Part shown: piece after piece, positions 1,197-63,590 of the stretch
Numbering within the stretch: position 1 is the stretch's first letter
Layout: each line of letters opens with the position of its first letter
Origin: Styela clava
Lineage: Eukaryota; Chordata; Ascidiacea; Stolidobranchia; Styelidae
Length of the DNA stretch: 64,000 nucleotides
Direction of reading: 5' to 3'
Assembly: GCF_964204865.1 (NCBI RefSeq)
Contig: NC_135255.1
Location: 18,443,135-18,507,134, forward strand
Notes under the pieces: model-generated
What the model was told of the DNA's origin: nothing
Databases searched by the model: none
What the model saw: only the letters and a program-made list of their open reading frames with translations
Program-made: the position numbers and the translations under genes

Positions 1197-3695
1197 TTAC
1201 AAATTATAGATTTCGTTGACAACAACTTCTTGCTCGGATCTGGCATTAGATGCCTCATTAACAACGCTGTATACATGTTCGCATTTATTTCCCTGGCTTG
1301 TATTCGCGACTTCCACATTTGCAGTTGGCTGTCCTTGTAGCTGGTAACTGATGTTTCGACATCTAAAATTAGGGTGAAAAAATTATTGTGAGTAGATTCG
1401 CCCTATTACTATTTCCTACTTTTGAACATATTTGATATGATTCAAAAAGGTTTTTCCCGTTTTCTAAAACCCACAAAGGATGCAGCATGTTTGGAATTCT
1501 TTGTTTGCAAATTCTGGTTGTTGCTATCTAGCAATTCAATCTCTTTCAATATGTTTGGAAACATGCAACTCAACGGTTGCTTATACAAGACTAATATAAG
1601 ACTCTAAAATTATCGATTGATTCATAACTATATACAGTATTTTATACCGAATCGCTTCGTAATAAATAGTCACCAACCTGACAATCACCACAAATAGAGC
1701 GACCAAAACTATAAACACAAGAATCCCAAAAATTATTGCGAGTTTGCGGTCCGTAAATACTGCTTGATCTTGTTCAGAAATTTTGGTCGAGTGTTGAGCA
1801 GTTGTTGACATCTGCTGTAAAATTGCGATTTCGTCAACTGCAAATTAAATTATGTTCAATATTACCAACTTGTTAACGGCGTGCAACCTCAATCATTTTA
1901 TTAACCAATCAAGTATTTTTTTATTTATAAAATATTTATCTCCATAATATACCGCATCCTTCGTAATCCAGTGCGGAATAAATAACTAGGATGAGCACTT
2001 CATGAAAATTCATTCTTGGTTGATTGCTTCCACCGTTTCCACTGCATTCGTTGATTTTTGTTATAATCATCATTATTTGAATTTCATAACATGAATTAAA
2101 TTCAAGGGTTATCTAGTTATTGTGTCCACTGTGGGTAACTATGGCTTTAATAGTGTAGTTGGATTTGTAATGGTATTGGGTTGGGTAATGCTCCTCAGGT
2201 GACGTATGTACGTAAAATGGCACCAGTGACAATGTTTGCAAATGCGCGCTCTTGATCGTTGACTGGCAACAATTATTTAATTAAGTAAAAATTTGAGTTT
2301 TAATTCTTCTCCAAGTTGAGAATATTTTACTGAAACATTTTACGATTAGAACTTTTTACTCATTTTGCGCCCAATCCATTCGGCACCCATGGCACAAGCC
2401 ACGGCTGTCATACCTTAGATACGCCACTGTACATATGTTGCTTCTATCTATAGTCGTGTATAAAGCATTTTCATTTCTTACCCGATGAGGTAAATGACTG
2501 ATAGATGATTCTAATTTCGAAGTGTTGCCAAAGCTTAAAAACCCAATATTCGGACTCATACTCAATAGTAATTGGGAAAATATTTTCCATGTTGGTCCAT
2601 ATTACTTTGGTACAAGCGTCGGCAATGGAGGCGTTGACACAAGTAGAGCGTTTGGAGAAAAAAACGAAGCAGGTGTTTTCATGGTATTCGCAAATATTAT
2701 TGCTTTCAAGATAAGCTGCAACGAGAATGAAATATGTTTGAGACCGTGTTTGTTGTTTGCACCATTGTTGGTGAAAAATGCTTTACCTGAAATGGTAAGA
2801 GATACGTAACAGTCGGAGAAAGGTTTTAGATCCATCTTCGTCAATCTCACAAGTAAGACCTCGTTTTTGGATTTACAATTTTGATTGGTCAGAGTCCATC
2901 TAAAGCTGACTTTATTATATTTCTTATACTCGATAGATCTTATCGGTTGTGGGCATACATTTATGTTTTCTCCAAGAAGTCCACGTGCCAAAGCTGAAAA
3001 TAATTTGACAATATATTTTTTCTCGTGATATGATTAATTCATGTTCATATAAATAATTAATATATTCATTTTCTTCTTTGCTGTTGCAGAATATTTTAAT
3101 TAGATGTCACTGATATCAGATTATTGCTTATTGTAAACCAATACTACAGCAATATTCAGAGTGGTCTGTGGAAATAACTTCTTCTGCATAATAACAGTGT
3201 ACAAAAACAGCGCTCTGCAATTTTGTACGGTTTCCCCCAATCTGCTGGGGGTATATTATGTTGAGTGCCGGATTCGATTTTGAGTCAAACAATAACACTT
3301 TTTGAAACGCATTCCAAATCGCGATTATTGCAGAAGAGGTAACAAAGATATGTATTAAAAATACTGCGTCTCACACTTTTTTGTTCTTGTCCTACCATTT
3401 CCCAATTGTTCCGATTTTGTTATACACTTTCACCGTGTCTCTACCACGAATGCCACCCCATATGTTAACTATAACGATTTGCCCAAATTTTTATATATAT
3501 CCAGAACTTAAGATGTATCCCATCTGATATACCTAAATAATCAGTTGTTTCCAATTTTATACGTATTCTGAGCCAAAACAGTGGTACAAGTGATTTGCCA
3601 TTCACAGTGTTTACATTGAAGTTCCCAGTACCGCCATACTTGCCTAGGACATCAAAGATATACAAGGCGAAATATCTTGACATCATCCTTCTCAT
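1197..3695 (-). CDS. Receptor copy 1: signal peptide, D1, D2, stalk-TM, tyrosine tail
   Basis: Five exons on the minus strand: 3695..3644 (leader), 2993..2787 (D1), 2715..2482 (D2), 1837..1678 (stalk plus TM), 1362..1197 (tail, TAA). They sum to 819 nt, an open frame of 272 aa. The leader starts MRRMMSRYFALYIF. D1 has Cys, Trp-x6-Cys and a third Cys. D2 starts AYLESNNICEY and carries Cys-x6-Cys. The helix (LAIIFGILVFIVLVALFVV) is followed by Arg and a tail with EHVYSVV and the C-terminus VVVNEIYNL. The start is the first ATG in frame in the leader exon. Intron 1 has an AG|GCAAGT donor (GC-AG type) where copies 3 and 5 have GTAAGT. D1 is the short, 207-nt form shared with copy 5. It is presumably a type I membrane receptor signalling through phosphotyrosine; ligand unknown. 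I do not recognise it as a named family. Confidence 0.8.
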
Positions 3696-4150
3696 CGGTA
3701 TTTCTCTTTTCACGTTGCCAGAATAGAAACGTCTCTTGAAATTGTAAATACAGTTTTTATATCTGAGTTATTCTTCATCTACTATGCTTACAACTTTTTT
3801 ATATAACTGATGCATCATAGGATGGCACGTACAAATATATTGTGCAAAGTGCTGTGAAGTGTCACTGCTGAAGTAATACTTAGAACAAAGTGATATTTGC
3901 ACACTGAAATGTAGGTGAATGGAATTCGTGGGCGACCATTTGGGTATTGTGTACAAAGCAGTTTTGCGTTGTAGGTTAGTATTCTTCCCAGATAAAACTG
4001 TGGCATTGACGCGTGATGATTTGCTTGAATGGGGTTCTTAGGAACAAGCATTGTCATGTGAATAACCGCAAACATGCGTTTTAGGAAATAAACATTCGTC
4101 ACAATTTCCTCATCGGATTCTACGACATTTCATCTGACACTCAATTTCTG
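3696..4150 (-). promoter_or_regulatory. Class A 5' flank of copy 1 (putative promoter/5' UTR)
   Basis: Sequence upstream of the leader that is clearly similar to 13490-13842 (copy 3) and 55440-55807 (copy 5) but not to the upstream regions of copies 2 and 4. The similarity runs through a block around 'gatgcatcatagg' (seen inverted in the plus copies). I see no certain TATA box, so the promoter call is inferred from position and shared sequence. Confidence 0.45.
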
Positions 4151-5207: not shown

Positions 5208-5228
5208 TCACAAATTATAAACTTCAAT
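5208..5228 (-). pseudogene. Remnant of a receptor tail exon (last codons only)
   Basis: On the minus strand the bases read GAAGTTTATAATTTGTGA, that is E-V-Y-N-L-stop, matching the invariant C-terminus of the other tails. The rest of the tail exon and its upstream intron are absent: the sequence jumps straight to intron sequence next to the TM exon. This marks a deletion breakpoint near 5230. Confidence 0.7.
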
Positions 5229-5302
5229 AGTTTTGAAAACATCTTTCAACCGCCCATAGAACTTTATTGAAAACAAACGCACTAAAACCTTCGAAAATAT
5301 GT

Positions 5303-7062
5303 TTAAGTAATCACCAACCTGACAATCCCCGCAAAGAGAATGATCAAAACAATGAATAGCAGAATCCCAAAAAGTATTGCAAGCGTGCGTTCCGAAGACA
5401 CTGCTTGAACTTGTCCGGAATTGCTGGATAAAACGGTTGATTGTTGAGCAGTTGTTGACATCGGCTGTACAGTTGTGGTTTCGTCAACTTGAAATCAAGA
5501 AATGAAATCATGTTCAATTTAGTTCAACATTAACAACCCTTTAATCGATCGTGTAGTTAATAATAAGGCATAAGATACATATTAACGATCGAAAAATTGT
5601 GTTTCATTTGAAGACAGCAATTTATTTTTGTAAGTTTTTATTTTGATAATTTGGCGCAGCACGAACAAAAAGATTTGGAACCGCCGACATAAAGCGTTCT
5701 CGCTGCATTTTCGTTATGATTATCATGTACCTGAATAAATTTAATCCAAGGGTAGTGATTCGGTTGGGTAATGGTATTGTGTCGGGTAATGTATAGCTGA
5801 CTTTCATCTGTTGTTCATACAGCTATGTATAAAGCATTTACATTTCTTACCTGATGAATTGAATGACTGGTAGATGATTTCAATTTCGAATTGTTGAATA
5901 TGGCCACCAGCCCAATGTTTCGAAGAATACTTCACAGTAATCGGGAGAATATTCTCCATTCTGGTCCATATTACTTTGGTACAGGCGTCGGCGATGGAGG
6001 CATTGAGACAAGTGGAGTGTTTGGGATAAAAAACAAAGCAGGTGTTTACACGGTATTCACAAATGTCCTTGCTTTCAAGATAGGCTGCAAACAAAAAGAA
6101 TTGTATTCAAGATATTGTTTATACCATTATTACTGAAAGTTTGTTACCTAAAATTTCCAGATATCCGCGGCACTGAAAGCGCTGACTACGTTTAATATTC
6201 ATCTTCGCCAATCTCAGAAGTAAAACCGCGTTTTGAAATTTACAATTTTGATCAATCAGAGTCCAACTATTGCTGACTTTGTCGTTTCTCTTATATCCGA
6301 TCGATCTAGTTGGTTGTGAGCATACATTAATGTTTTCTGCAAGGAGTCCACGTATCAACGCTGAAAATAATAACAAATAACTGCTTTTCCTGATATGATT
6401 GAATTACCTACAACTATTGCGACTTTTTCATTGTTGCTACTCATCATCGTGTATTTTGATGTTTTTCATTTGTTGGTTGAATGTTTTAATGTACAAAAAT
6501 ACATTTGTGTTAGTGTGCAGGAAGACATTCGATTTGCATAGTATGGTCATGTTTATTCCTGCTACAGCATCCTTGCATTATACGCATGCGGATCCACTAG
6601 CGCAAATGCATTGAGGAGTGATTGGGAGTTAGTCTCGCGTAACGTCTACTGATAGTTATACCAAAAGTTGGTTGCTAAGTAGTTCACAGACGTTCGTACT
6701 GGGCGGGATTTTATTTTGTTTTTGAAGCGAACTGTTGGGGTACCTGGGTTGAGTGTCGGGTTTGCCATTTAGTAAGAATCTCACGAACAAAACACCTTTC
6801 AAAGCACACATTAATGAACCACGACCTCGTAAAACCGATTATGTATGTGCCTTGTATCATATATGACATATGCAGTCATAACCGGATACTCTTACAGTTC
6901 TGAGAATGATTTTATTCGAGACTGTTCAACTAGACTAGAGCCAATTACACGTCTAATCATAAACCTACGAGTTCATCAGTCTATTTTGTGATTTGGCAGA
7001 ATTAAATCACTCAGCAACTTACCTGAATATAGAAGCGTTTTGAGCATTCCAGCTTTCTTCAT
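5303..7062 (-). CDS. Receptor copy 2: tail-less form
   Basis: Exons on the minus strand: 7062..7023 (leader, starts MKKAGMLKTLLYS), 6360..6148 (D1, 213 nt), 6084..5851 (D2, 234 nt), 5487..5319 (stalk plus TM, helix ILFGILLFIVLIILFAGIV). All frames and phases fit the family. The tail exon has been deleted (see 5208-5228), so without splicing the frame runs through the old donor as R-L-V-I-T and stops at 5305..5303, giving about 223 aa. The acceptor of the stalk exon is TTCAAG instead of the usual TTGCAG. In D1 the motif near the third Cys is RSQRFQC rather than the RSGYYQC type. The product would be a membrane receptor with almost no cytoplasmic part, as in decoy or adaptor-dependent members of paired receptor families; no charged residue is seen inside the helix. 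It may instead be a pseudogene. Confidence 0.65.
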
Positions 7063-7910: not shown

Positions 7911-7929
7911 TATCCAATGTTTGTTTTCC

Positions 7930-13842: not shown

Positions 13843-16235
13843 ATGGAAGGATATTTAGCCTTTTATATATTAGCTATTTTCAGTAAGTATTGCAATCTCC
13901 TGGCTGGGAATTTTAATGGAAATAGTGTGCTTGATAAAACACTCGTACCACTGCTTTGGCTTAAAAAAGACTCATAATTGAAACCAAATGGTTAGTTTAG
14001 GCATATGAAATGGGGATTCATGATATGTTTTGAGTCAGTAAATCTATAAAATGTTGGGCAGTTGGTCAGAGTAGACATATTGAGTGAGATTCGTGGAATG
14101 TTCTGAATTAGATAAGTTATGAAATTTTTTCAATATGGTTAGAGTAAACATATTAAATGGGATTCATGTTATGTCCACGGCTAGCATATTGACCGAAGCG
14201 TAAAAGTGCGGGGCAAGTAAGGCACGATTTCTGAAATTTATACACTTTTCTTATTATTAAGTTTTTGGTGATTACATTATTTTCAGCTTTGACACGCAGA
14301 TTTCACGGAGAAAGCATAAATGTATGCTTACAACCAATCAAATCCATCGGATATAATGGATATAGAAAAGTCAGCTTTAGTTGGACGCTGACCAATCAAA
14401 ATTGTGAATCTCAAAACGAGGTTTTACTCCTGAAACTGGCGAAGATTAATCTTAAACGCAGTGGGCTCTATCAGTGCCGCGGATATCTAAAAATTTCAGG
14501 TAAAAACCTTTAAGCACAATAGTGCAAACATTATCTTGACTACAATTCATTATGTTTGCAGCTTATCGTGAAAGCAAGAACATTTGTGAATACTCTGAAA
14601 ACACTTGCTTTGTGGTTATTCCCGAAAATTCAACTTGGTTTGATGCCTCTATCGCCGACGATTGCACCAATATAAAATTGATAAGAATGGAGAACATCTT
14701 TCCGAGTACTGTAACATATGTTTCTAAAAGTTGGGCTAATACGTATTTGCAACATTTTGAAATTGGGATCATCTACCAGTCATCCAATTCAAAAGGTAAT
14801 AAATGTTGATTTTTTTAAAATACGATTTTCATACATATTTCTGACTAGATCGATTATAAAATTTTCTTGGGTGTTTTGTTCTTTACAAAAACTTGATAGC
14901 TACTAATTTCATTTTTCAGTAGATTTTATTGTTTTATCATAACATGAGAACTGGGAAGCATGGGCCTGTAATACATTATCCAATCTCTACCAGGGTATTA
15001 ATAAAGTGGTTGCGAAAGACTTTGTTCTGGATTATCTATAAATTGAATCTATGTCGTTGATTTTAAAAAATTGATAACAAAAAATAAACGAGTGCACCAG
15101 ATACCGTCAAAATAATCAACCAAGAGAGATTCTTCATAGAGTCTGAACGGGGGATGTACCTGTCAGCCCAGACGATTTGCCGATAACCATCCAAGTTATT
15201 TGTTCACCATTGAATGACCAAAGGTATGGTTCAGCGGTGTGGCGCATCGTGGTAAGCGTTAGGAATACGCTCGCCACCGCAACTTTGATTACCCCGCGTT
15301 CGCAGATTCGAATCCTATGCGACGATAGTTATGTGCGAGAGGATTGCTGGACTCCTCGCCGCGGTAGGGTGGTTCACGTGACCGCTGGTCGGTTACGGCC
15401 TCCTCCGCTATCAAGACCATGCTTCCAAAAACAAATACCCAGCTGAATAATCCCATATCCGACATTTACTGTTACCCGGACGACAGGCCGTGGTTCGCCA
15501 TAGGATTAAGCCGTCTTATCGGCACTCCTCTCCGCGGGATAAATATTTACTGATGTTGAAAATGATTCATTTGCAGTTGACAAAACAACAACTGTACAGC
15601 AGATGTCAACAACTGCACAGCATATATCAACGACTGTACAGCAGATGTCAACAACTGCACAACATATATCAACACATGTACAGCAGATGTCAACAACTGC
15701 TCAACAGTCGACCGTTTTATTCATCATTTCTGAACAAGTTCAAGCAGCATTCATCGACCGCACACTTGCATTCATTTTTGGAGTTCTACTGTTCATCGTT
15801 TTGATTGTCCTCTTTGCTGTGATAGTCAGGTTGGTGTTGCGTTTCACTTGTTTGGTATGGACGATTATATAGAAATTGGCAAATCGATACTTTTGGAGGT
15901 ATTGCAGGTGTGTTCTGAATGAATAAAAGTCTAAAAAGAATAAGAGGTATTAGGAGTTGCTATCCCTATTGAATATACGTACATTTTAAAACTTATAAAT
16001 GAAACAACTTCGGGCTGTCTCATAACGATCCTGTTTTGAACATTTTAGATATTGTAGGAAGATCGGTAACCAGCTACAAACACCCCAAGATCAGCAACAA
16101 CAGCTTCCTCCGAATGTGGAAGCCGCGAATACAAACCAGCAAAATGAGTGCGAACCTGTATACAGTGTCGTTAATGAGGCATCCAATTCCAGATCCGATC
16201 ATGAAGTTGTAGTCAACGAACTTTATAATTTGTAA
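13843..16235 (+). CDS. Receptor copy 3: complete, longest stalk
   Basis: Five exons: 13843..13882 (leader MEGYLAFYILAIF), 14287..14499 (D1), 14562..14795 (D2), 15577..15829 (stalk plus TM), 16049..16235 (tail, TAA). They sum to 927 nt, 308 aa, one open frame with phases 1,1,1,2. D1 contains SFSWTLTNQNC (Trp-x6-Cys) and RSGLYQCRGYL, which resembles the Tyr-x-Cys end of an Ig-like fold, although overall Cys spacing is unusual. D2 has CEYSENTC. The stalk is Ser/Thr/Gln-rich with a 14-residue tandem repeat (15594-15719). The helix is FIFGVLLFIVLIVLFAVIV. The tail has a poly-Gln stretch (DQQQQ), EPVYSVV and ends VVVNELYNL. It is probably a type I surface receptor with SH2-binding potential; ligand unknown. 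A SINE (15216-15552) sits in the intron before the stalk exon. Confidence 0.82.
15216..15552 (+). mobile_element. tRNA-derived SINE-like element in intron 3 of copy 3
   Basis: Contains a tRNA-like head with a stem-loop GCGTTAGGAATACGC and a B box (GATTCGAATCC), and shares its body with 7596-7910. The head could derive from a tRNA with a long variable arm such as tRNA-Ser (loop triplet GGA); this is a guess. It ends just before the acceptor at 15576. Confidence 0.65.
15594..15719 (+). repeat. 42-bp coding tandem repeat in the stalk
   Basis: Three 42-bp units (15594, 15636, 15678), each starting GTACAGCAGATGTCAACAAC and encoding VQQMSTTAQHISTT and variants; the third degrades after its first half. 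Units are built of two 7-residue halves. Copies 1 and 2 have one unit, while copy 5 has diverged 7-residue units. Length changes therefore keep the frame. Confidence 0.9.
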
Positions 16236-23502: not shown

Positions 23503-26083
23503 TTAATTCATTGTATATAGTTCATTGATGACAATTTCATCCTGATTCATCATGTCGTATGGATTTTCAATGAAGTTAGCTGCATTGTCTTGTTCGATTA
23601 CGATATCCAGGTCTGGTTCGTCGTGGGCGTTGTCATATATATTGTTTTCGTGATGTGAATGTTGAGTATCACTGCTACACTTTTGTGTAGTTTTCTTGCT
23701 TATTAATCTGTGTAAAAAGTATCGTTATTTGTAATTTTGAAATTTCATGTTATTGAAATAGACATTTGCATACACATACTCATGCTCCACAAGTATATCG
23801 AAATTAGAAAAGTGTTCATGTGGCGTGAAAATGCCGTAAATTTGAGCAACCGTTATATAAAACTACCGCAAAATATTGGGCGTAGCAAAGTATCCTAAGG
23901 TAAAACACCCTGGCACGTATACTGCGGTAGCACCAAATATTGATTGCGTTATTACATACTTCCATGACATACAAAACTTAGATGCTGAAGTTACATTTCA
24001 AACTCTGTCTCGAGTTACGGAATATTTTTTTTTTATTGATGTTGGAGAAAAAAATTTTCAAAGTCAAGTATTGTTGTACATTGAAAATAAAAATAAATGA
24101 AAACTTTAAGACTCTGATGATGTAAAATTCATAACTTAGATTGCCTAGAGCCGAATGCTTTGAAATCAGATTCGGATCCGGAGATAAATGCTCCGCCAAC
24201 TTGGAGTCAGTTTATTAATTAAATGGCTCAGCGGCAAAGATAGGCACAGCGAGTAGGCATATAGGCTTACCTTTGAATGACCAAAACCAATAATGCAAAA
24301 CCTTCCATCAAAGCAATAACTCCAAATACAATTGAGAGGGCAACTCCAGTGTTGTCGCTCACGATGGACTCAGTTCGGCGATCCCCTGTGGGGATAATTC
24401 CGGTTCGGTTATCCTCTGTAACCGTTTTCTTGGGTGGTTGGGGACGTCGTCGTGAGTGAATATTCTGTCACACCGTTGGACGTAGCAGTCATCATTGGTG
24501 TATCTAGATTATAAACGATTGACTTATTGACTATGTATAAGAAGCATTTGTGAAATGTAACCTATGTTTTTTTACGTGTACGGAAAATTCAGCGCAGAAA
24601 ATTCGCCGATTTTTTCATAAAAACATCAAGGCTGTTTATAGGGTTAGGGTAAACTCTTAAATAACGAATCATTTTTAAATAAAAAGGTACTTTGACAATC
24701 CAACTGTTTTTATCACAAATACTTGTCTTACAACAAAATGCTCTTGCGCAATTTTTCCTATGCGGCGAAATTTCCTGCGGAGAGATTTCATACGGCGAAA
24801 TTTACTGCGGCGAATTACCCAAGAACCTTTTCTCACTCTATGTTTTAAAAATTGTGCACCTCAAGCAATAACCATATGTCTTGGTAAATAAAATTCAAGA
24901 AAACTTATAAATTTATGACACCGCATGCGCCTAATTATTGCTCGTATAATAACATAAAAAAGGGAATTTCCGTTTTGTGTTAACGTTGGCATAACGTAAT
25001 CAGATTTTGAATAATATTCGACAGAATTTCAAAGCTGGTTCAAATTCTGTTATATGGCATAACGCAATTTTTACGACGTTTATGGTTTATATCTCCAAGG
25101 AATCACTAAAAAATTCATATACATATTTAAATAGACATTATATAATAAATATACAAGCGTAACCATTCATTCATTGTTCATAAGACAAACCTAATATATT
25201 TTCTTCATTCATTATGTATTCATAACCAACGTTTAGCTTCATGTTTCTATTGTAATAGCCTTTACTAAAATCAACCACAACCGGAACGATCGAATCTTGG
25301 AAGATTAGAATACATCCGTTGATGAGTGTTCTGTTTGAAAGTGATGATTTCGTCGAGACGACAACAAAACATAAACCTTGTTGAAATTCACAAAGTTCGC
25401 GATTGTTCTGAAACGCTAGAAAACAAAAAAAAATATTTGTATTTATACAGCAGTTTGTTCGGGATAGCTCCCCAAATATAAATTGAAAAAGGGGAGTCAG
25501 TTTTTATGACTTTATTTTTTGTTTTCAAAGCACAACAATATTCAAAATGGTGATATTTCTAAAAATATAAAAAATATCAGCAGGTATTAATGAAAATCAA
25601 ATTCCTCAAACAAACCGGATATTTTTAGAGATGCTTTGCAATCGCCGTTGTATGTCAGACTCATTGTATTCAATCGAAGTATCAGAGCGCTTTCTTTGTA
25701 AACACAGTTATTCGCAGTCATATACCACTGCCGAGAGAACCAGTCATAACCATCATACTCAAATACATCAGTACTCTTCTTGCAGAGATCCACAACTGCC
25801 CATCCGTTCGCCATGAAGAAAAATCCTTCAAAAATTACTGAATGGGGTTGGAGGAACGACTATACAAATAAATTGCGGTGACAGTGGGGATACCGATGGG
25901 GTGGTAAACTGAATCGACGTCGAAATTATTGACTTTTTAAATTATTTTCTCGGATTATATGTTTACCTGATAAAATATTGCCCAGTACAAATATTCGATA
26001 ATATTTTACACCTTGCGCCGAAGTAGATAGAAAATACATGAACCATATGAAAGCTTACCTAATAATAAGATTATCCTGAGCAT
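23503..26083 (-). CDS. Receptor gene 7, divergent subfamily; frame break in the stalk
   Basis: Minus-strand exons: 26083..26059 (leader, MLRIILLL), 25837..25616 (D1; the leader continues VIFEGFFFMANG), 25415..25191 (D2), 24503..24271 (stalk plus TM), 23707..23503 (tail, TAA). D1 keeps Cys, Trp-x6-Cys (WYMTANNC) and a third Cys (GDCKASLKISG); D2 keeps Cys-x6-Cys (CEFQQGLC), so it is a distant member of the same family. The stalk reads Thr-rich (YSLTTTSPTTQE), then a +1 shift is needed to enter the helix frame (GVALSIVFGVIALMEG, FALLVLV): the total is 910 nt, one too many. The helix has a central Glu. The tail carries NNIYDN, NPYDMM (a YxxM, PI3-kinase-type motif) and ends VINELYTMN. It is either a pseudogene, a sequencing indel, or a gene with an unrecognised splice site. 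Confidence 0.65.
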
Positions 26084-30361: not shown

Positions 30362-30394
<33 letters not shown>

Positions 30395-36116: not shown

Positions 36117-36149
<33 letters not shown>

Positions 36150-36566: not shown

Positions 36567-37759
36567 TTTATCGATTCCTTGAAATATCCCGATGCAAAAG
36601 TAAGATACTTGACCCTTTAGACCACACAGTGTCTAATGACAAACAATTTCATGTATATACGCCAAGCTGTCCACATGAAAGTATAAATGAATCATTTCCC
36701 GTAGTGCGTGTACCAGGTTAGGGTTAGGCCATGATTTTATTCCGATTTTCTTTATTTTAGTTCCCTATTTTAGTTTCGATTTCGAGGACTGTAGTGTTAG
36801 CCAAGTGATATACCCTCTGCCCATAGTGTTCCGTCCCCATGCACAACTTGATGTAAAGTAGGCGAACAAAATTGGTTACCTCCCTATTGGTACACATACT
36901 TCTGGAGCGCCCCATATTTAGCGTTTGTTTGCAAGGAAATGTACAAATGACTACTAATACAACCTCCTACAGTATTTATTTTTGCTTCGTCAAAATTAAA
37001 ATATCTGCGAGGGTTACCTTACAAGCTAGCTGTTTGATTTTATTTATACTAACGCCGCCTCCTTTCATAAAAGAGAACACGGCACATTGTATGCACGTCC
37101 ATATTTATTGTTTGACTACTGTATTTATTTATTGTCATTCTCTATTCAAACTGGCAATACGAAAAATATGTCGTTTGGCACATTATTGAGTTGTCATAAT
37201 GATTTTTCTCATTTTTGAAATAAAAATATGTCCTATGCTATTCCAATACCCTTTCTTCTGTGCTATTAAAATGGAGATAACACTGGTTTCGCCTACCAAC
37301 TACTGCTGTGGGCTATAGACATAAGAAAGTTGCTATGCAATACATGGAACAATGCAAGTCATTGACAGTTTATGTGGATCTATAGAAAAGCTATTGACAC
37401 AAAGTCTTGCCTTATTATGGAGTTCGGATGTTTCAAACAATGAATCGCGCTCAACCTCCACCGTTTTCTTTCATATACACTCGTGTTGATTTACTGTTTA
37501 TAAATATTGCGTGGCTGCGCATTGTAAGTAGTAAATACTTACCTGAGTGCATTACCTAAAAACATTATAAAAAATCATGTATCAATACTGGTATGCAAAG
37601 ACTCAATGAAACTTCGCCGCCCATATTTAAGAATAAAAGGTTACATTTTTGTAGGGCAATGCTTGGTTTTATCGTAACTAGTTATATATCAACCTGGTAG
37701 CGTGATTAAAATGTGACCAGAACCCTTATTAAACTTTCTAAGCTTTGAAATCGCTGGTA

Positions 37760-38073
37760 CAGTGGTTCCCTAACTTTTTATGGCTCGTGGACCCCTTCGT
37801 GGCTTTTAGCACTCATAGGTCCCTTCCTAATCATTCCCGTGGTATTTATAGTGGTATTGTAATTGGTAGATTCCAAATCCCATAATGTACAAACAATTAA
37901 TGCTCAACAAAGTGAAAACATCCTTTGAAATACCCTTATCAAGCAATGAAACTAAGAAGAACGGTGTGTTTTCTTGTAAAGTGAAAAGCAAAATCAGTTC
38001 TACGCCTAGCACTGTGCCCCTTCCCATATACTGTTCTGTGGGTCACTTGAGAAGCCATGGTTGGGAACCACTG
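37760..38073. mobile_element. hAT MITE in unit 2
   Basis: Same element and site as 32005-32318. Confidence 0.8.
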
Positions 38074-41073: not shown

Positions 41074-41871
41074 CTGGCATATTATAGGTTTAAGGAAGTT
41101 AAGAGCGCGAAGTGTCTCCGCAAACACGTTATAGGCTTTTGTGCAGTCATTTCCCTCCAAGATCCAGTTTCTCGCCAGCCCCTTGCCATTACCAATTTGC
41201 GCAGGATACTTTGCACACAGATCAATTGTTTCAGTATCTTGCCCCAAACACCTGTTTGCCACTGTGACGAAAACAAATTACGATATGAATCAGCTATAAG
41301 CTGCCTTATCGCAGTTCAGGAAAGTAATATGAGTAAAAAATGAATACATTTATTATATTATAAACAAAATTGTTTATATATCACTTTTCATTACTATATT
41401 TTACCAGAAAATAGTCACTATGATTAGATACTATACCACGTCGCTGGAACATGAAATGCTAGCCCATTTTATAGAACTGAGATAATAATTTAACACGCTT
41501 GAGTGTTCAAAATGAATATGAGGTAAAAAAGTACTGAGCCTCATTCATTAGGGTTCTGATATACAAATTGTGAAGATTTATTGGGGTCGCCTAACTTCTG
41601 CTGTACATGCGCACGTATGGCACTAGGCTTCGAAGGTATCGAAGTGAAATTTGTATGGCCTGAACTGTGGCCTTAAAATCGAGAGTAAATCGAGAGTACT
41701 AAATTTCTAAACTTTTGAGGCACAATATTAGATTAAAACGTATACAAAAAGTACATATTACAGTATGTTTTAACATAACTTCTTTCAAATGAAGTATATT
41801 TTCTTCTTAACTCGCGCAGTAATTATTAATGAAATTTATATATAAATCGCTGCAGATAGGTAATGATACGA

Positions 41872-41904
<33 letters not shown>

Positions 41905-42321
41905 CATCTAGGTTCCCTATATGGTGCGTAACTGCGCCGACCATTGGGTGTGGGTCGTCATATTTTCTAACGCCGAGCTAGATGTTCGTTCCATGTTTGA
42001 ATTACATGTGTAGTTTGCTCGCATTTTGATAATACTGTTGTAATATCTGACATAGTTTGTAGACTCTGCTCAGCCTTAAAATATTCATGCTCATTAGAAC
42101 AAACATTTGCTCAGTGTAACATTTTCTTGGAGGAAATACTGCTCGTCACCCACGTTATCCGATACAACAAAAATTTAAACGGCCATTATTCACGCCACTA
42201 AATTTGGCACAATTCAGCAGGACAGGGACATGATCTTTAGCTAATTCCTTACACAAAGGTTGCCCTTTCCAACGATTAGAAAAAAGGAAGCCTTACCTAT
42301 CAATAAAAGTATGAAAAACAT
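41074..42321 (-). CDS. Gene 8, unit 3: leader plus D1 only
   Basis: Exons 42321..42297 and 41261..41074, identical in translation to units 1 and 2. Read-through stop at 41038. Confidence 0.55.
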
Positions 42322-43514
42322 TTTATCGATTCCTTGAAATATCCCGATGCAAAAGTAAGATACTTGACCCTTTAGACCACACAGTGTCTAATGACAAACA
42401 ATTTCATGTATATACGCCAAGCTGTCCACATGAAAGTATAAATGAATCATTTCCCGTAGTGCGTGTACCAGGTTAGGGTTAGGCCATGATTTTATTCCGA
42501 TTTTCTTTATTTTAGTTCCCTATTTTAGTTTCGATTTCGAGGACTGTAGTGTTAGCCAAGTGATATACCCTCTGCCCATAGTGTTCCGTCCCCATGCACA
42601 ACTTGATGTAAAGTAGGCGAACAAAATTGGTTACCTCCCTATTGGTACACATACTTCTGGAGCGCCCCATATTTAGCGTTTGTTTGCAAGGAAATGTACA
42701 AATGACTACTAATACAACCTCCTACAGTATTTATTTTTGCTTCGTCAAAATTAAAATATCTGCGAGGGTTACCTTACAAGCTAGCTGTTTGATTTTATTT
42801 ATACTAACGCCGCCTCCTTTCATAAAAGAGAACACGGCACATTGTATGCACGTCCATATTTATTGTTTGACTACTGTATTTATTTATTGTCATTCTCTAT
42901 TCAAACTGGCAATACGAAAAATATGTCGTTTGGCACATTATTGAGTTGTCATAATGATTTTTCTCATTTTTGAAATAAAAATATGTCCTATGCTATTCCA
43001 ATACCCTTTCTTCTGTGCTATTAAAATGGAGATAACACTGGTTTCGCCTACCAACTACTGCTGTGGGCTATAGACATAAGAAAGTTGCTATGCAATACAT
43101 GGAACAATGCAAGTCATTGACAGTTTATGTGGATCTATAGAAAAGCTATTGACACAAAGTCTTGCCTTATTATGGAGTTCGGATGTTTCAAACAATGAAT
43201 CGCGCTCAACCTCCACCGTTTTCTTTCATATACACTCGTGTTGATTTACTGTTTATAAATATTGCGTGGCTGCGCATTGTAAGTAGTAAATACTTACCTG
43301 AGTGCATTACCTAAAAACATTATAAAAAATCATGTATCAATACTGGTATGCAAAGACTCAATGAAACTTCGCCGCCCATATTTAAGAATAAAAGGTTACA
43401 TTTTTGTAGGGCAATGCTTGGTTTTATCGTAACTAGTTATATATCAACCTGGTAGCGTGATTAAAATGTGACCAGAACCCTTATTAAACTTTCTAAGCTT
43501 TGAAATCGCTGGTA

Positions 43515-43828
43515 CAGTGGTTCCCTAACTTTTTATGGCTCGTGGACCCCTTCGTGGCTTTTAGCACTCATAGGTCCCTTCCTAATCATTCCCGTGGTAT
43601 TTATAGTGGTATTGTAATTGGTAGATTCCAAATCCCATAATGTACAAACAATTAATGCTCAACAAAGTGAAAACATCCTTTGAAATACCCTTATCAAGCA
43701 ATGAAACTAAGAAGAACGGTGTGTTTTCTTGTAAAGTGAAAAGCAAAATCAGTTCTACGCCTAGCACTGTGCCCCTTCCCATATACTGTTCTGTGGGTCA
43801 CTTGAGAAGCCATGGTTGGGAACCACTG
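43515..43828. mobile_element. hAT MITE in unit 3
   Basis: Same element and site as 32005-32318. Confidence 0.8.
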
Positions 43829-46022
43829 CGCTAGTATGACCCCATATAGTATGGCATGACGTATTGATATGATACTGATTTGAAACACTTATCCGAATTC
43901 ATCAGAAAAATATATTCTTTCAAATAGAAGATCTGTTCATCTAAAAATTCAATTTACTTTGCTTTTACATTATTTATTATTAATGTACCTTCTGTTCAGA
44001 AAACATACATAATCCGGCGTGATTCAAAAATTTCGTTTTCGACTCTTAACTAACAAAAAAAGAAGGTGGCAAAACCATCGGAGTCTGAAAGACTCAAAAT
44101 GTATAACACCAATATATTGACTTCTCCTGGCTTGAGTCAAATTAAGAACTCATGTGCTGGTGTAGAAATGAAGATACTGCCAGGAAGCAAGGTCTGATGA
44201 CGTAGAATGCGCAGCAGGGATGATAAAGATAAATGTTGTTATTACTGCAACTAACATCTCGGGGGTGACTGAAAATGGTCCAAACTAAGGGTTCTACTAT
44301 CGGCACGTCAGTAAAGGACACTCCAACGTTCAAGTCACGGTATTTTGACACTAGAACAGGGACTACTACATAAGTATATATTAGAGCTATAATCAAGGAA
44401 GATCATAAAAATAGACATTTCGATTTAAAAAGTTCTACCCCAATTTGGTATGGAAGATAAGAGAAGGGCAGTAATTTTTGTTCTCTTTCGTTCGCCTATA
44501 GTTGTAGAAAATGTACAATGCTCACCCAATAGAATGTGAACAATAAATTATTGAGAAATAATATGATGAGAGAATTGAAATGTGACGTCATGTTTCTAAC
44601 TGTGACGTAAGTATATTGGGTTTCTCGTTTTGTTGCGAAAAATAATAATCTTGCTTATTTCCTAAATATATCGTTATGTTATATGCCTCATTCATCACCT
44701 CCGAAAACCATCCATCTTGACAATTTCTCAGAAACGACTGGTATTGTTCAGCGACATACTTTAACAATGAACTAGTACACTGATTTACAACCTATGTTCC
44801 GGAAACTACGTAAAGGCAAGCTTCCTCGACAAACCTGCTTGGAATGCAAGATAGTTTATTCAAATATTTGTAAGGACTTTTGAATGAGAGATTCAACATT
44901 GCGATAAGTTGCTAAATGAGGTTGAATACGCGTATTCGAATAAGACATCCTTACCTCAGTAAATCCAATACAGTGCTTAACATACGCAAAGAAAAATATA
45001 TTTTGCTTACCAAACAGAACTCTGAAAATAAACCTATTTTAACTAACATAAGAAACAGTCCATATTGAGTCAAAAAGTTCAAGGTTAGTTTTAAATATAC
45101 AACAAACCGTATTAAAGGAATTGCAGATACGTTGCATGAGAACTAGTAACTGAAGTCGATATCCTTGCATCGGTTGATGGTTTTGCCCGATACAGATATA
45201 TATTATGAAGCGTGCCAATAACAGTCGATATAATTTCATACATATTCCTTCTATGTTTCAACGTAAGTTGAAAACGAACTGCTTCGAATTCTGGTCGGGG
45301 AAATCACATTACAAATTATAGATATATCGCAAAACATAACATGAATTATGGCCATATTTTGAGCTATCTAGTCAAGTACAAATATAACAGGCCTGATTAA
45401 GATCGAGAGTACTAAACTTTTAAGGGCACAATATTACATGCGTTAATACGTATACAAAAAATACATATTATAGTATGATTTAACATTACTTCTTTCAACC
45501 TAAATATATTTCTTTTTAAACTCGCGCGGTAATTTTAAAGGACTTTTATATAAAATTTCTGCATATATATAAGATATATATATCGGGTGTGTAACTGCGT
45601 CGACCATTTGCGCAGTAAAATCTCATTCTCACGCACACAAAGTGTGGGTCCTCATATTTTCTAACGCCGAGATAGATGTTCGTTCCATGTTCAAGTTACA
45701 TGTGTACTTTGCTCGCATTCTGATAATACTGTTGTAATATTTGACATAGTTTGTAGACTCTGCTCAGTCTTAAAATATCCATGCTCACTAGAACAACTTT
45801 TGCCCACTGTAACATTTTTTTAGACGAAACACTGCGCGTCACGCAAGTTATCCGATACAACAAAAATTTATACGGCCATTAGTCACGCCACTAAATTTGA
45901 CACAATTCAGCAGGTCAGGAATATGATAATCAGCTAATCCTCTACAAAAGGTTGCCCTTTCCAACGAATAAATAACAGAACCTTACCTATCAATAAAAAT
46001 ATTGAGAAAATTTTATCTATTT

Positions 46023-46222
46023 NNNNNNNNNNNNNNNNNNNNNNNNNNNNNNNNNNNNNNNNNNNNNNNNNNNNNNNNNNNNNNNNNNNNNNNNNNNNNN
46101 NNNNNNNNNNNNNNNNNNNNNNNNNNNNNNNNNNNNNNNNNNNNNNNNNNNNNNNNNNNNNNNNNNNNNNNNNNNNNNNNNNNNNNNNNNNNNNNNNNNN
46201 NNNNNNNNNNNNNNNNNNNNNN
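46023..46222. other. Assembly gap of 200 N
   Basis: Exactly 200 N, a conventional gap size, so the true missing length is unknown. It falls inside the tandem array. Confidence 0.99.
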
Positions 46223-50333: not shown

Positions 50334-52870
50334 TCACAAATTATAAAGTTCGTTGACAACAACTTCTTGCTCGGATCTAGCATCAGATGCCTTAATAACG
50401 CTGTATACAGGTTCGCATTCATTTCCATGGCTTGTATTCGCGGCTTCCACAGTTGGAGAAGGCATGTGTTGGGGTGTTTGTAACTGGTTACCAATCTTCA
50501 TTCGATATCTAAAATGTTCAAAAAGATATCATTTTGATACAGCAACCCTCAATATCAACAAAAATAGCAAAGAATAAAATGGGTCATATGTATTTTATAA
50601 AAGTAAATTAATCATATCACGAAAAAAAATATTTTATTAAATTATTTTCAGCTTCAACACGTGAACACGTGTAAATATATGCTCGCAGCAAATAATCGAT
50701 CGCATACAAGTGATATGATAAAGTGAGTTGGTCGAATTCTGACAAATCAAAATTGTAAATCTAAAAACGAGGTCCCCCCATCCGTTTTTTTATACGTTTC
50801 AATATATATATATTGGATATATTACTTCGATACAGCACTTTTCGATTTTCCTCAGTCACACGAAGGATAACGCAAGTTTGAAATTCTTTGTTTGCAAATA
50901 ATTTTGATATAGTTTAAAACGTGAGTTTCAACGAACTTTATCGAGAACAAACTGCATAAAACCTCCAAAAATGCGTTTCAAGGCGTCACTATAATATTCT
51001 TTTATTTCACACTAAGTTTATCATTTTGTAATACGTAGACACCAACCTGACAATCACCACAAAGAGAACGACCAAAACGATGAACAGTAGAACTCCGAAA
51101 ATTATTGCAAGTTTGTAGTCCGAAGACACTGCTTGATCTTGATCAGTAATGCCAGATAAAACGGTCGAGTGTTGAGTAGTCGTTGAAATCGGCTGTTCCG
51201 GTATAGATGGTGTAGTTTTTTGTATTGTTTCTTTTGCTGTTGTTTAAAATAAAAGCATGCTTTATCCTATGATATGAAGACGTGTAATCGAGCGTTCAAT
51301 TGTTAGGCAGGTGGGGCACAGGAACAAACATAAACTTGTAATTGACATCATTTCAGAATAACGCATTCCCATTCAAAAAATCAATAATTAGGTCCTATAT
51401 AGACTAAGAGTAGTCCTCCCCCATCCATCATGAAACAGTGGCAACTCCTAATAGACGTAACTGAGTCTAAACACTTATACAGATCTTACTTGTTGGTATT
51501 AATGGCTGGTAGATAATTTCCATTTCAAATTGTTGCCGATTGTTCGAAGCTCGTGATTCTGTAAAATACTTCACAGTAATCGGTAAAATATTCTTCATTT
51601 TGGTCCATATTACGTTGGTGCAATCATTGGCAATGGAAACGTCGACAAAGGTAGAGTTTTCGGGATAAAAGGCGAAGCAGTCGTTTTTATGGGATTTGCA
51701 AATGTTCCTGCTTCCACGATAATCTGCAAGGTAAATAAAATATATTCGATATCTTGTTTGATGCGATAGATGGTAAAAACTTTACCTGAAATGGTTAGAT
51801 ATCCGCGGCATTGATAGTACCCACTATCTCTAAGACCCATCTCCGCCAATTTCAAGAGTAAAACCTGGTTTTGAAATTTACAATTTTGATTAGTCAGAAT
51901 CCAACTAATGCTGACTACGTTGTATCCAGTATATCCGATAGATCTGATTGGTTGTGAGCATACACTTATTTTTTCTGCAAGAAGTCCGCGTGTCAACGCT
52001 GAAAATATAATTTAACAAATGAATGCTTTTCCTGAAATCATTGGATCACTTTTAAAAAGCAACTAATGCGACTTTTTCATTGTAGCCACACATAATCGTT
52101 TTTTTAGATGTTTCCCACTTGCTGGTATAATGCTTGATTAAACCAAATATACCAAATGTTGTACAATTCAAGAGTCCTGCTGAACAACAATACATTTTGG
52201 TAGTGTGCAGAAAGACTCTGAAATTGATTAGTATGGTCATGTTTATTCCTGTTGCAGCAGCCTTGCAATATACGCATACAGATCCACTGGCACAAACGCA
52301 TTCGGGAAAGATTGGGAGTTAGTCTCACGTAATGTCTACTGTTAGTTATGCCAAATGTCGGTTGCTAATTAGTTTTCAGACGTTTATACTGGGCGGGAAT
52401 GCATTCTGTCTTTGATATGAACTGTTGGAGTACGTAGGTTGAATGTCGGGTTTGCCATTCAGTGAGAATCTTGCAAAACACTTTACAAAACACAAAGTAG
52501 ACCACGACCTCGTAGAACCGATAGTGGCGCGTATTCAAATGCAATGACTCAATTTTTATGCTTCGGAAATCCAAAAATAAAAAGGAGGTTTCGTCTTGTA
52601 GATTAGGATTTGAACCGACCAAAAAAAAAGAGCTCGCGATCTTGAAGTCCACGCTGCACCTCGTATCATAAATGTAATCATACCTCCATGCTCTTACAAT
52701 TCTGAGAATGGCTTACTCAGACACTATTTAACTAGACTATAGCCAATTAAGGATCTAATCATAAAACTACGAATTCATTAGTCGATTTTGTCATTTGGCA
52801 GAACTAAATCACACGGCAACTTACCTAGAAGAAGAAACGTTTTAAGCATTTGTAATCCGGTTTTCTTCAT
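50334..52870 (-). CDS. Receptor copy 4: complete
   Basis: Five exons on the minus strand: 52870..52825 (leader MKKTGLQMLKTFLLL), 51998..51786 (D1), 51723..51490 (D2), 51236..51047 (stalk plus TM), 50508..50334 (tail, TGA). They sum to 858 nt, 285 aa, one open frame. D1 has SISWILTNQNC and GLRDSGYYQCRGYL; the D-S-G-Y-Y-x-C string is the best Ig-like signature in the cluster. D2 opens DYRGSRNICKSHKNDC. The stalk (KETIQKTTPSIPEQPIST) differs from the other copies at its start and uses an AACAG acceptor. The helix is IIFGVLLFIVLVVLFVVIV. The tail has ECEPVYSVI and ends VVVNELYNL. The leader and upstream region are class B, as in copy 2. The intron before the tail holds an inverted D1 fragment (50652-50773). 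Confidence 0.82.
50652..50773 (+). pseudogene. Inverted D1 pseudo-exon inside an intron of copy 4
   Basis: On the plus strand, ATTATTTTCAG is followed by sequence aligning with the first two thirds of a D1 exon (pieces 'aaatatatgctcgcag' and 'caaatcaaaattgtaaatct'), with stops and a break at 'gaggt|cccccc'. It is antisense to its host gene. Confidence 0.75.
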
Positions 52871-55807: not shown

Positions 55808-58146
55808 ATGATTCGTTGGACAGCGACAGGATGTTTTGCTTTTCATATATTAGCTCTCGTCAGTAAGTATTGCGATTTCATGGCATGGAATTTCAACGGA
55901 AACGGTTTGCTTAGTAAATCACTTACTACTGCTTTTGCTTGGAATAGGTAAAAAATTAGAAACAACTGGTTAGATTAGGTATATGGAGTGAGGATTTATA
56001 GTGTATTCAGTAGTATATAAACGTAAATATATAAAACGTTTGGAATGTGTTTCAGAAAGTGTTTGTGTTCTGATCCATCAAATGACATTCAGCGTGAAGT
56101 ACTTAACAGTTTGGGGGAATTGTACAAAATTGCAGAGCGCTACATTTATACGCTGTTCTTATAATTAAGGATTGTTTTATTCCACAAACCACTCTGAATA
56201 TTGTTACATTATTTGTTCTCCATAAGCAATATCAGTAATATCTAAACAAAATGATATGGAACAACAAAGAAGGCAATGGGCCATTGTGTATATTGAAAAT
56301 AATTTTATCATATCACGAAAAAAAAATTGTTGATTAAATTATTTTCAGCTCTGTCACACGGACTTCTTGCCGAAAACATAAATGTATGCTCACAATCAAT
56401 CAGATCTATCGGATATAAGGGAAGTAGCAAAGTCAGCTTAAGTTGGACTCTGATTAATCAAAATTGCAAATCTGAAAACGTGGTTTTACTTTTGAGATTG
56501 GCGAAGATGTATCTCAAACCATACTCATATTGTCGCGGATCATTTACCATTTCAGGTGAGGTCTTTTATCAACAATATAGTATGGACAAAATCTCGAATA
56601 TATTTTATCTTTCTTTGCAGCCTATCTTGAAAGCAAGAACATTTGTGACTACCCAGAAAACACCTGCTTCGTTTTTTATCCCGAAAAATCTACTTATATC
56701 GATTCCTCTATCGCCGAAAATTGCACCAATGTAAAATTGATCAAAATGGTGAATATTTTCCCGATTACTGTGAAGTATAATCCAAATATTGGAATCATTG
56801 GCAAAACTTTGGAATTGCAATCATCTATCTTTCTTCCAATTCATCAGGTAAAAAATATAAATGCACTGTACTTAGAGTTAAAAGAAGCCTTTTATCTATA
56901 TATTACCCTAATTAACATTATTACGACCCGCAAGGAAAACTAGCGCGGCCCGCGTTGAAGTGACAATTTTGAATGGTGCGCGGCCCGCAAACCGATATTT
57001 TAGTTTAGTTTTATCAGGTACATAGTGATTCCAATCCTTTGGGTTGCAATGCATATACCTGAGTCCAATTATTAGCTATACTTATGACGTCACAATGCTA
57101 TGACAGCGGGCTTCAGTGAAACGAACAACGCATTTCATAAGATCAATAGCCAGAATTGTTGTGCATGCAACTACTAGTAAGCATATGTTGAATGACGGTT
57201 CGGCCCGTGATTTCACCCACTTCATTCATGTACATGTTAATTGTAACAACTCTTCTCCATCATATCTAACTTATTTTCCTTCGTAATGCTACAAAATCTG
57301 AAATACTAGAAAGTAAAGTGAATTATGGAGCTTGTACCCCAGCCAATTATTAACTACGCGGTCTTTTAAAGAGTTGTTATAATACTAATATTGAACATGA
57401 TTTCATTTGCAGATGACAAGGCCACAACTGCACAGCAGATTTCAACAATCGTACAGTCGGTTTCAACAGCTGCACAGCCGGTTCCAACAACAGTAGAGCT
57501 GATATCAACAACTACTCAGCAATCCACCGTTCTGTCAAGCATTTCTGAACAAGTTCAAGCAGTATTCATTGACTGCACACTTGCAATACTTTTTGGGATT
57601 CTACTATTCATCGTCTTGATCGTTCTTTTTGTGGTGATTGCCAGGTTGGTGATTACATATTACAAGATAATATACTTGGTGTGACATAGAGTAATATATG
57701 ATGACTGATCAACCGATATCTTCAGAGATATTGGACGTTTGTTCTGATAAATGAAAGTGTAAAAAAGTTATAGTCTCATACCAAAACATTTTCTTACATC
57801 TTCGGTAGGATGGGGTTGTTCGCTAGCTTGAATCGCCAGAAGTTGCAAACAAAAAGTTTCAAACTTGCGATACTCCTTGCGCAACTGAAAATCTGAATAT
57901 TGTTGCGAAGTACTATATCAAATATGCATATTGTGAGCTGTTGTCTTTTGATGATCTTTTTGTGCTTATTTTAGATATCGAAAGAAAATCGGTTACCAGC
58001 AACAAACGTCCCAAGGTCCGCAACATCGGCCTTCTTCGAATGTGGATGACGCGAATACAAGCGAATCGTTATACAGCGTCATTAACAAGGCATCTAATGC
58101 CATATCCGAGCAAGAAGTTGTTATTAGCGAGCTTTATAATTTGTAA
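55808..58146 (+). pseudogene. Receptor copy 5: frameshifted in D2 (pseudogene or secreted form)
   Basis: Exons: 55808..55862 (leader MIRWTATGCFAFHILALV), 56349..56555 (D1, short 207-nt form), 56621..56847 (D2), 57413..57644 (stalk plus TM), 57975..58146 (tail, TAA). D2 is 227 nt, whereas all four other copies have 234: seven bases are missing between about 56775 and 56815. After splicing, the frame enters the stalk exon one base off and stops after about 27 codons, before the helix, so the protein would lose its membrane anchor. Restoring nothing, the TM and tail exons themselves remain open: helix ILFGILLFIVLIVLFVVIA, tail SLYSVI (the only copy matching the full ITIM consensus S-x-Y-x-x-I) and C-terminus VVISELYNL. 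The stalk has 7-residue repeats (TAQQIST, AAQPVPT, TVELIST). Open downstream exons suggest a recent lesion or an alternative form. Confidence 0.72.
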
Positions 58147-61930: not shown

Positions 61931-61935
61931 GGTAA

Positions 61936-62165: not shown

Positions 62166-62272
62166 CGATTTTTATGCTTGATAGAAAAAATGCTTCAAAT
62201 TTCATGCCGAATACAGATCACATTTAAACGACATAGGAAAAATAATTGAACTTTAAAATTTCATGTATATAT

Positions 62273-63590
62273 TCACATTGTATATAGTTCATTGACTACC
62301 GTTTGCCTCTCATCAATTTCATAGGCATTTTCTGACTGATTTGTCAGAGTTACAACTCTATTTGTTGCACTGATGTTGGGCGGGTCGTCAGCAGTTTCGT
62401 AATATGCCTCATTTACTGTGTCAAGATTATTCGTTGCACCGAAAGAGTTGTTTGAAGTATTCGGGGGAATATTTCTGCATCTGAAATAAATTTTTTAGTA
62501 TGATTAGGATCCTTGTTTTCAAAAATTTACTAAACGCAAAGTAATGAAATATTGGTCATAAACATGAGGATATCAGGGCGTCATTGCTAATGTTTATAGG
62601 TATAAATTCATAAACTACACATTTGAAAATTAAGTAATTGCGTCATACCAGCGTGTGTAAATATTGTAAATCTGATTTTATCTAACAGCCTGCCAGAATT
62701 GATGGAAACATAATAAAGCTTGTAATTAATAAATTATAATAGCTAGGTGTTGGTATATAGAAGACCTGTTGTGAACTTAAAGTGAAATGTTTGTCTTCAT
62801 AAGTCCGTATAAAATTTGATCAAGTAAAATTACCTATTTGAAATCAAACAAATGTTGGTTTATATCAGACATGGGCAAACAACGGTCCGCGGGCCAAATC
62901 CGGCCCGTTGGGTAATTTAATCCAGCACGCCCGATGCTGTCACAACCAAACTCAAACCAAATTTTGATATTAACCAATGTAATAGCGGAAGGAATTTGTT
63001 GAGATTGCAATTAAATTTAGTTTTGTCACGGGGCTCATTGTTTTTCACTTAGACTTTTGTCACACTGTAAATATTTTTCATAAAATGTAACTTTTACGTT
63101 ACACTTACAAAGCCCGCCAGTCTAGGTGGGCAAAAAACCGTGACCACCCTGGTTTATATGTAAGGCGTCATACCTTGGTTTTCCGTAATCAAATTGTAAC
63201 ATTCATCAGGTGGATTGATAATACAAAAGTTATAAATATTGCACTTCCGCTATAAATAAATAGAGGGTTATTGGTACTTGGTATGTGATCTCAGCGGTTA
63301 TGTGATCTCAGTGATTTTAGTTAGAGTTAGGGCTTGGAACTGAATTCTATGAAAATGTCTCTGTGCCATTGAGATCACGTTAAGCATGTGAGATTGCATA
63401 AAGCGGCACCGACATAGTATATTCTAATCATCAGACTTATTCACCTGAGAAAAACTAGAACCGCAATAATTATCGCTTCCACGGTAGCAAGAGCTGACAC
63501 AGCAATTGATAGGATATTGAAACTGAACGATCCTCCGCGTTTTTGTTCAATCATGCCAATAGTATCAGCACACAGCGTCGAGTTGTTATC
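62273..63590 (-). CDS. Receptor gene 6, divergent subfamily: stalk-TM and tail exons only
   Basis: Minus-strand exons 63590..63445 (stalk plus TM) and 62480..62273 (tail, TGA). The leader, D1 and D2 exons must lie beyond 64000. The helix frame reads FSFNILSIAVSALATVEA then IIIAVLVFLR, aligning without gaps to gene 7 over 22 residues, including a central Glu. As in gene 7, the stalk frame (DNNSTLCADTIGMIEQ) and helix frame differ by +1, here at a run of six A. The stalk acceptor (AACAACAAG) is poor. The tail has EAYYETADD, ENAYEIDE and the C-terminus TVVNELYTM. A hAT MITE (62866-63151) sits in the intron. Confidence 0.6.
62866..63151. mobile_element. hAT MITE in an intron of gene 6
   Basis: Ends are CAGACATGGGCAAAC and the complement of CAGGGTGGTCACGG. 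The 8-bp target duplication GTTTATAT is perfect (62858-62865 and 63152-63159). Confidence 0.85.

Follow-up and report, generated by a model that had tools for sequence, protein, structure and literature searches.

The well-known clustered receptors of allorecognition and innate killing that have interchangeable tails are built on Ig, lectin or sushi domains. The KIR, LILR and cnidarian Alr clusters include broken and tail-less copies, and in them related Ig-type ectodomains are combined with different signalling modules. Such joining of one type of recognition half to different signalling halves is a hallmark of paired receptors. Here we analysed a 64,000-nucleotide stretch of the genome of the tunicate Styela clava (the window, C6:18443135-18507134, on contig C6 of an assembly of 379 contigs and 376.6 Mb), which holds a cluster of genes for apparent type I membrane receptors with tyrosine-containing tails and an ectodomain that is probably CUB-like. 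Going by the accessible part of its description, the nearest described system is the fester family and its co-receptors (FF/FcoR) of Botryllus, which is alike in comprising large clustered receptor families of a tunicate on several chromosomes, and differs in its ectodomain. The accessible sections report over 37 new FF loci and 53 FcoR loci, type I FcoRs with an immunoreceptor tyrosine-based inhibitory motif (ITIM), a hemi-immunoreceptor tyrosine-based activation motif (hemITAM) or core YxxI/L/V tails, and FcoR proteins of 520-610 residues that combine one V-type Ig domain and one sushi domain with two C2 Ig domains (PMC12065747), whereas copy C of the window has one split CUB-like domain between leader and stalk in 308 residues.

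A clustered CUB-like, tyrosine-tailed receptor family was not found among the papers listed by literature searches on CUB receptors, allorecognition and invertebrate immunity, with subscription journals largely outside their coverage. CDCP1, DCBLD and NETO have a CUB fold outside the cell and one transmembrane (TM) helix, some with signalling tyrosines. Each is a conserved single gene whose product contains several CUB domains or domains of other kinds, and they do not form clusters with swapped tails. An extracellular CUB fold, probable in the window family, and a single TM helix are common to both. The lancelet pangenome paper, in its accessible part, has nothing on the window receptor family (PMC12373286).

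We lean towards reading the locus as a block of genes from a large tunicate family of clustered single-pass, tyrosine-signalling recognition receptors that are CUB-like and not Ig. The window contains five close copies (A-E) and a divergent one (F), as well as the 3' part of a further gene (G) and broken pieces; receptor copies lie on both strands. Using exon translations against the window, tblastn located pairs of the two ectodomain exons, D1 and D2, on the minus strand at 3003-2477, 6370-5846 and 52008-51485, and on the plus strand at 14277-14779 and 56339-56778; with the 52-kb copy (D) as query, the other four D1 exons were recovered at E-values of 3.8e-32 to 4.6e-26. A divergent pair was found at 25793-25201 on the minus strand (D1 E-value 1.7e-8). 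Stalk/TM exons matched at 1820-1671, 5476-5309, 15573-15842, 51195-51085 and 57421-57654, and tails at 1361-1200, 16047-16232, 50510-50337 and 57973-58143, two more tails being located through their last residues (23538-23509 and 62383-62276). Stalk/TM exons and tails are in order and on the same strand as their D1/D2 pairs. A first-pass annotation, made from the sequence alone, had described close and divergent relatives clustered in both orientations, and this description holds. The genes are, in window positions:

Copy B, 1197..2993, minus strand: D1 2993-2787, D2 2715-2482, stalk/TM 1837-1678, tail 1362-1197 (EHVYSVV...NEIYNL, stop)
Copy A, 5208..6360, minus strand: D1 6360-6148, D2 6084-5851, stalk/TM 5487-5319, tail remnant EVYNL and stop
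Copy C, 13843..16235, plus strand: leader 13843-13882, D1 14287-14499, D2 14562-14795, Thr/Gln-rich repeat stalk and TM 15577-15829, tail 16049-16235 (EPVYSVV...NELYNL, stop)
Copy F, divergent, 23503..25837, minus strand: D1 25837-25616, D2 25415-25191, TM 24415-24271 (acceptor picked to avoid an upstream stop), tail ~23607-23503 (ENPYDMMNQDEIVINELYTMN, stop)
Copy D, 50334..51998, minus strand: D1 51998-51786, D2 51723-51490, TM ~51195-51046, tail 50508-50334
Copy E, 55808..58146, plus strand: leader candidate 55808-55862, D1 56349-56555, D2 56621-56847 (227 bases, frame broken near 56780), TM 57413-57644, tail 57975-58146
Gene G, 3' part, 62273..63536, minus strand: TM 63536-63444 with a mid-membrane Glu, tail ~62482-62273 (...VVNELYTM, stop)

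The leader exons of copies A, B and D were not confirmed in the window, nor was an ectodomain for gene G found within it. Copy C provides the complete gene model, with five exons and AG/GT at all eight internal splice ends. Its phases, 1,1,1,2, were checked exon by exon and yield a single open frame of 927 bases with the stop at its end, as the exon plan of the first-pass annotation had it. As read from this model, the product (308 residues plus stop) is a type I membrane protein, and together with the recurring tail motifs described below it agrees with the earlier view of tyrosine-tailed, apparently type I receptors. A 19-residue hydropathy scan gave one strong hydrophobic segment (residues 217-254); the N-terminal leader (MEGYLAFYILAIF) fell below the threshold of 1.6, and for this reason we infer the signal peptide. 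The stalk is a tandem repeat with periods of 21 and 42 bases. Copy A, with its tail reduced to a remnant, and copy E, with its broken D2 frame, are altered copies. The window contains intact (C), tail-less (A) and broken (E) copies as described in the first-pass annotation, and the possibly secreted form that it also named was not confirmed.

The first-pass annotation took D1 and D2 for two ectodomains, D1 being likened, only weakly, to half of an Ig fold and a new fold being considered possible. Our results favour a different view, in which D1 and D2 are probably two parts of a single divergent CUB-like domain that a phase-1 intron splits. Copy A, the sole close window copy with a frame-keeping D1-D2 intron, was modelled with AlphaFold (AF2) from an alignment of window sequences alone (11 rows, two residues misplaced). 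The model consists mostly of strands, with a predicted local distance difference test score (pLDDT) of 74.6, a predicted TM-score (pTM) of 0.72 and the lowest confidence in the intron loop; the other four models have average pLDDT values from 70.2 to 34.9. In a Foldseek search of the PDB, the best match to the model was the spermadhesin CUB domain 1spp_B (E-value 4.7e-3, probability 1.00), and among the best 50 of 726 matches all 13 with a probability of at least 0.90 are CUB proteins (spermadhesin, PCPE-1, MASPs, TSG-6, C1s and MAp19). The same 50 include Neto2 structures and, at lower probability, unrelated beta proteins; no plain Ig fold is among them, two entries being titled antibody complex with the chain not identified.

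Profile comparison points weakly the same way. With hhalign, family alignments were compared with eight PDB CUB domains, using four Ig V-type domains, column shuffles and reversed alignments as controls. In the family-CUB alignment Trp falls on Trp and D1 ends before the CUB mid-domain turn. The p-values against CUB were 0.015 for 14 members, 0.0038 with three neighbours added, 0.034 for 21 members and 0.013 for 24 sequences including three neighbours, and the CUB score was reached by 0 of 200 column shuffles for the 14 members and by 1 of 200 for the 24 sequences. Reversed alignments gave p-values of 0.1 and 0.49, and the four V-type domains a flat 0.31-0.69, which leaves the Ig-like half of D1 without support. 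The program's own probability for CUB was low, at 1.5 to 8.7 percent, but rose to 73 percent when the three neighbours were compared by themselves.

Two neighbour genes outside the window, at distances of 9 and 43 kb (L043 and L047), have the same D1/D2 split together with CUB signatures, GSIQSPNYPERF..NCRTW (SPNYP) in L043 and SGVISSPLYPKDF..DCKKW (SPLYP) in L047, and resemble the family weakly. A D2 profile built from six window copies only retrieved four neighbour D2-like exons (two of L048, one each of L043 and L047) at E-values of 0.0087-0.04 among 6688 open reading frames (ORFs), ranked directly behind family members among the eight sources listed. With a 42-member D2 profile that left the neighbours out, L043 scored 0.0079 and the L048 exons 0.014 and 0.074. 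These leave-out values are the ones to be used, since the neighbour E-values near 1e-17 to 1e-20 are inflated by the neighbours having entered the iterated profile.

A typical CUB domain has a Cys just before the first Trp, an SPxYP region and a calcium-site Asp in C-x-Y-D. Family members lack the Cys before Trp and the SPxYP region and have W-x6-C instead, the neighbours L043 and L047 having C-x2-W. The calcium-site Asp is missing at its place in the six window D1 exons and in 14 aligned members, and the domain is therefore probably a non-calcium form. The intron position gives a further, mild line. Of 350 candidate CUB matches in the genome, 150 were scored, all over the Pfam cut-off, and among 74 ordinary CUB matches restricted to the 5' part of the Pfam model, 35 stop at positions 60-69, close to the D1/D2 site. 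A separate CUB array was noted at C19:9355475-9389392 and C19:12129629-12141873, with long open frames (most 619-1028 residues) and many CUB domains.

Several results weigh against the CUB-like assignment. The Pfam CUB (PF00431) cut-off was reached in none of seven scans (family ectodomains B, D and F, and four neighbour constructs with L043 taken twice), the best score being 14.8 bits against a cut-off of 21.4, on L043 (E-value 0.037), and for this reason we call the ectodomain CUB-like and do not file it as Pfam CUB. When a profile of 17 sequences was searched against the PDB, eight matches came up at E ≤ 10, none of them CUB. The structure model of copy A had no Foldseek match at E ≤ 0.001, and it includes the 21-residue intron read in frame. 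Adding seven members to the alignment weakened the CUB score, with 5 of 200 shuffles of the 21 members reaching it; L047 falls to an E-value of 7.4 with the 42-member D2 profile, and D1 profiles reach L043 only at 0.23. The break-site line is only mild because 31 of the 74 partial matches end at positions 37-59, so that the CUB domains of this genome have several break sites, and these counts and the poor leave-out score of L047 slightly lowered our odds for the CUB-like reading and our confidence in the account as a whole. Even so, we hold a CUB-like origin of the ectodomain, with an altered cysteine pattern (W-x6-C) and the calcium-site Asp missing, to be quite likely.

A new two-domain ectodomain family, Ig-related or of a new fold, seems improbable. 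The missing Pfam match over cut-off and the weak CUB sequence evidence speak for it. In Pfam and PDB sequence searches only weak, unrelated names came up except for CUB in L043. Pfam scans of ectodomains B, D and F at E ≤ 1 gave no Ig or sushi match. On the other side stand the high-probability structure matches, which among the 50 best are all CUB, the flat Ig comparison and the D1/D2 split shared by neighbours that have CUB signatures. The two-domain or Ig reading was set aside on the fold search and the profile comparison.

The CUB-like ectodomain is joined to tails of several kinds. Many tails share a YSVV-type core and a C-terminal N-E-[LI]-Y-[NT]-[LM]; a slightly wider C-terminal motif has eight exact matches in 30 sequences, and its reversed form none. 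The terminal -YTM or -YNL is a possible class II PDZ ligand motif. Variants are YDMM in F, YHTV in L043, L047 and L048, and TIYSVI in L044, the tail of which matches TxYxx[VI]. A class of tails without the terminal motif ends in KSAMQQ (stop seen in L038 and L050). The TM helices of F (24270-24359), G (63444-63536), L042, L047 and L048 have a mid-membrane Glu, possibly for pairing with a partner that carries a basic residue. No such Glu is present in the TM helices of A-E, L033, L035, L037, L038, L045, L046 and L050, or in either TM of L043; since a tail at L043 ends in NQLYTM, Glu and tail class are not strictly coupled.

Two features of these modules weigh against the reading as recognition receptors. 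None of the nine tails listed contains a strict ITIM ([SIVL]xYxx[ILV]), and in the tail-less copy A the TM helix holds no charged residue, for which reason copy A was set aside as an 'activating' receptor. The close copies differ from KIR and LILR in that strict ITIMs and basic TM residues were not seen in them, except for copy E, whose tail reads SLYSVI, an ITIM match by eye in a tail that the pattern giving the nine had missed.

The most telling observation is that, on gene models built by order and strand, one ectodomain type appears on two different TM and tail modules. The ectodomain of L038 is 73% identical to those of F and L042 (F and L042 share 72%), whereas its tail is 79-82% identical to L045/L046 and 12-23% to F/L042, and its TM 64% and 28-36%, respectively. 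L050 has the same combination, with D1 and D2 broken. Because of this module swap in L038, the likeness to paired receptor clusters drawn in the first-pass annotation gains support. The swap also bears on whether the genes could encode CUB-based gamete or developmental adhesion receptors, expressed in the germ line or embryo, whose expansion served the specificity of fertilisation and not immunity. Spermadhesins make use of the CUB fold, and a spermadhesin, with its single-CUB fold, is the top structural match; spermadhesins are secreted and have no stalk, TM helix or tail. In the accessible part of the literature, gamete recognition in tunicates is described for other molecules, HrVC70 among them. 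An exchange of signalling modules between copies is more in keeping with receptors that sort signals than with simple adhesion, and we regard an adhesion role as unlikely.

The receptor family is much larger than the window, and is large and duplicating. A typed composite of D1 and D2 searched against the whole genome, with matches grouped by 2-kb linkage, gave 80 matches at E ≤ 10. Of these, 32 lie on C6 (19 groups, 18.205-18.541 Mb) and 37 on C1 (27 groups, 27.58-28.05 Mb), the remaining 11 being spread over five further contigs. As 32 of the 80 have E-values above 0.02 and are insecure alone, the stricter count at E ≤ 0.01 is also given, with 40 matches in 13 groups on C6, 15 on C1 and one on C3. 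A C1 member as query gave 78 matches at E ≤ 0.01. C1 itself accounts for 72 of them, which form 32 groups (27.58-27.95 Mb); C6 has five, of which three are window copies (E-values 0.003-0.007), and C16 has one. With the neighbour L047 as query, related pieces extend on C6 up to 18.582 Mb (E-values 1e-4 to 0.2). These family counts are lower bounds, and match groups are not the same as proven genes; the sequence letters were read for part of C6 and nine C1 stretches. Genes of the C1 cluster (L022, L023, L026, L028 and L029) often have a further D2-like exon, which follows the first after some 300-400 bp and may encode an alternative second half of the domain or belong to another copy. To our knowledge, GH6 is found among animals only in tunicates. 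In the genome search, a GH6 domain (PF01341) match over the cut-off lies at C9:16179895 (E-value 1.5e-6) and makes a tunicate host very likely; the accessible part of a published study records GH6 genes in tunicates (PMC7464555). A COX1 search of the assembly gave no match at E ≤ 0.001.

Selection was gauged among close copies by pairwise ratios of nonsynonymous to synonymous substitution (dN/dS, NG86 method, ratio of means). The values are 0.47 for D1 (36 pairs of 9 sequences, pairs 0.21-0.96, with about five codons of flanking intron in the stretches), 0.44 for D2 (21 pairs of 7 sequences, pairs 0.19-0.65, the broken D2 of E and L009 left out) and 0.55 for the tail (10 pairs of 5 sequences, pairs 0.40-1.57). 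Given the mean values for D1 and D2, the exons are on average kept as protein. The pairwise averages, all below 1, are no proof of diversifying selection, a further point against recognition receptors. We regard it as improbable that the genes are largely decaying duplicates without an organismal role, the debris of repeat-driven birth and death. E and L050 are broken, L013 has lost Trp and Cys, and the window contains a tandem array, all of which would suit decay; dN/dS near 0.45 in D1 and D2, the complete copy C, and splice phases and tails that recur on two contigs stand against it. The array is the following:

Three tandem 5755-bp units, 28769..46033: one truncated D1-like exon each, minus strand, at 29531-29767, 35286-35522 and 41041-41277

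At this period the array agrees with itself to 99.8%, and no letter differs between the second and third units over the 5755 bases compared. Its right end meets a 200-N gap (46023-46222); the array is probably an assembly artefact or a very recent amplification. Elsewhere in the window, by our own reading without an element search, the minus-strand ORF at 16400-16762 looks like repeat sequence and not a receptor, and motifs at 16350-16660 and 17860-19000 (GGCCCGCGGG and GGGGGTCGCGGG) are reminiscent of hAT-type element ends. Rfam gave no matches in the window.

Under the receptor reading, each gene product would comprise a leader, one CUB-like domain encoded over two exons, a stalk, a TM helix and a tail, some 60 residues long, in which tyrosines are conserved. 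Once at the cell surface, the CUB-like sandwich would bind cell-surface or microbial ligands, and the tail tyrosines, when phosphorylated, could recruit SH2 phosphatases or kinases. The outputs of modules that differ in their tails would then be different or opposing, in the manner of paired receptors, and the phase-1 intron between ectodomain and stalk may let unequal exchange put an ectodomain on another tail. The most likely use of such receptors would be in self/non-self or pathogen recognition. We also put forward, more speculatively, that chordates here have a recognition system whose variable receptor is built on one split CUB-like domain and not on an Ig or lectin domain, with at least about 45 match groups in several clusters and with ectodomains and tails reassorted, an independent route to natural killer (NK)-type paired receptors that possibly controls allorecognition or blood-cell killing in tunicates. 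If this is true, a large CUB-like family in the vertebrates' sister group would behave in the genome as the well-known clustered receptors do, which would suggest that it is the signalling layout, not the binding domain, that recurs; the genes described here would be concrete candidates for self/non-self and microbial recognition in tunicates.

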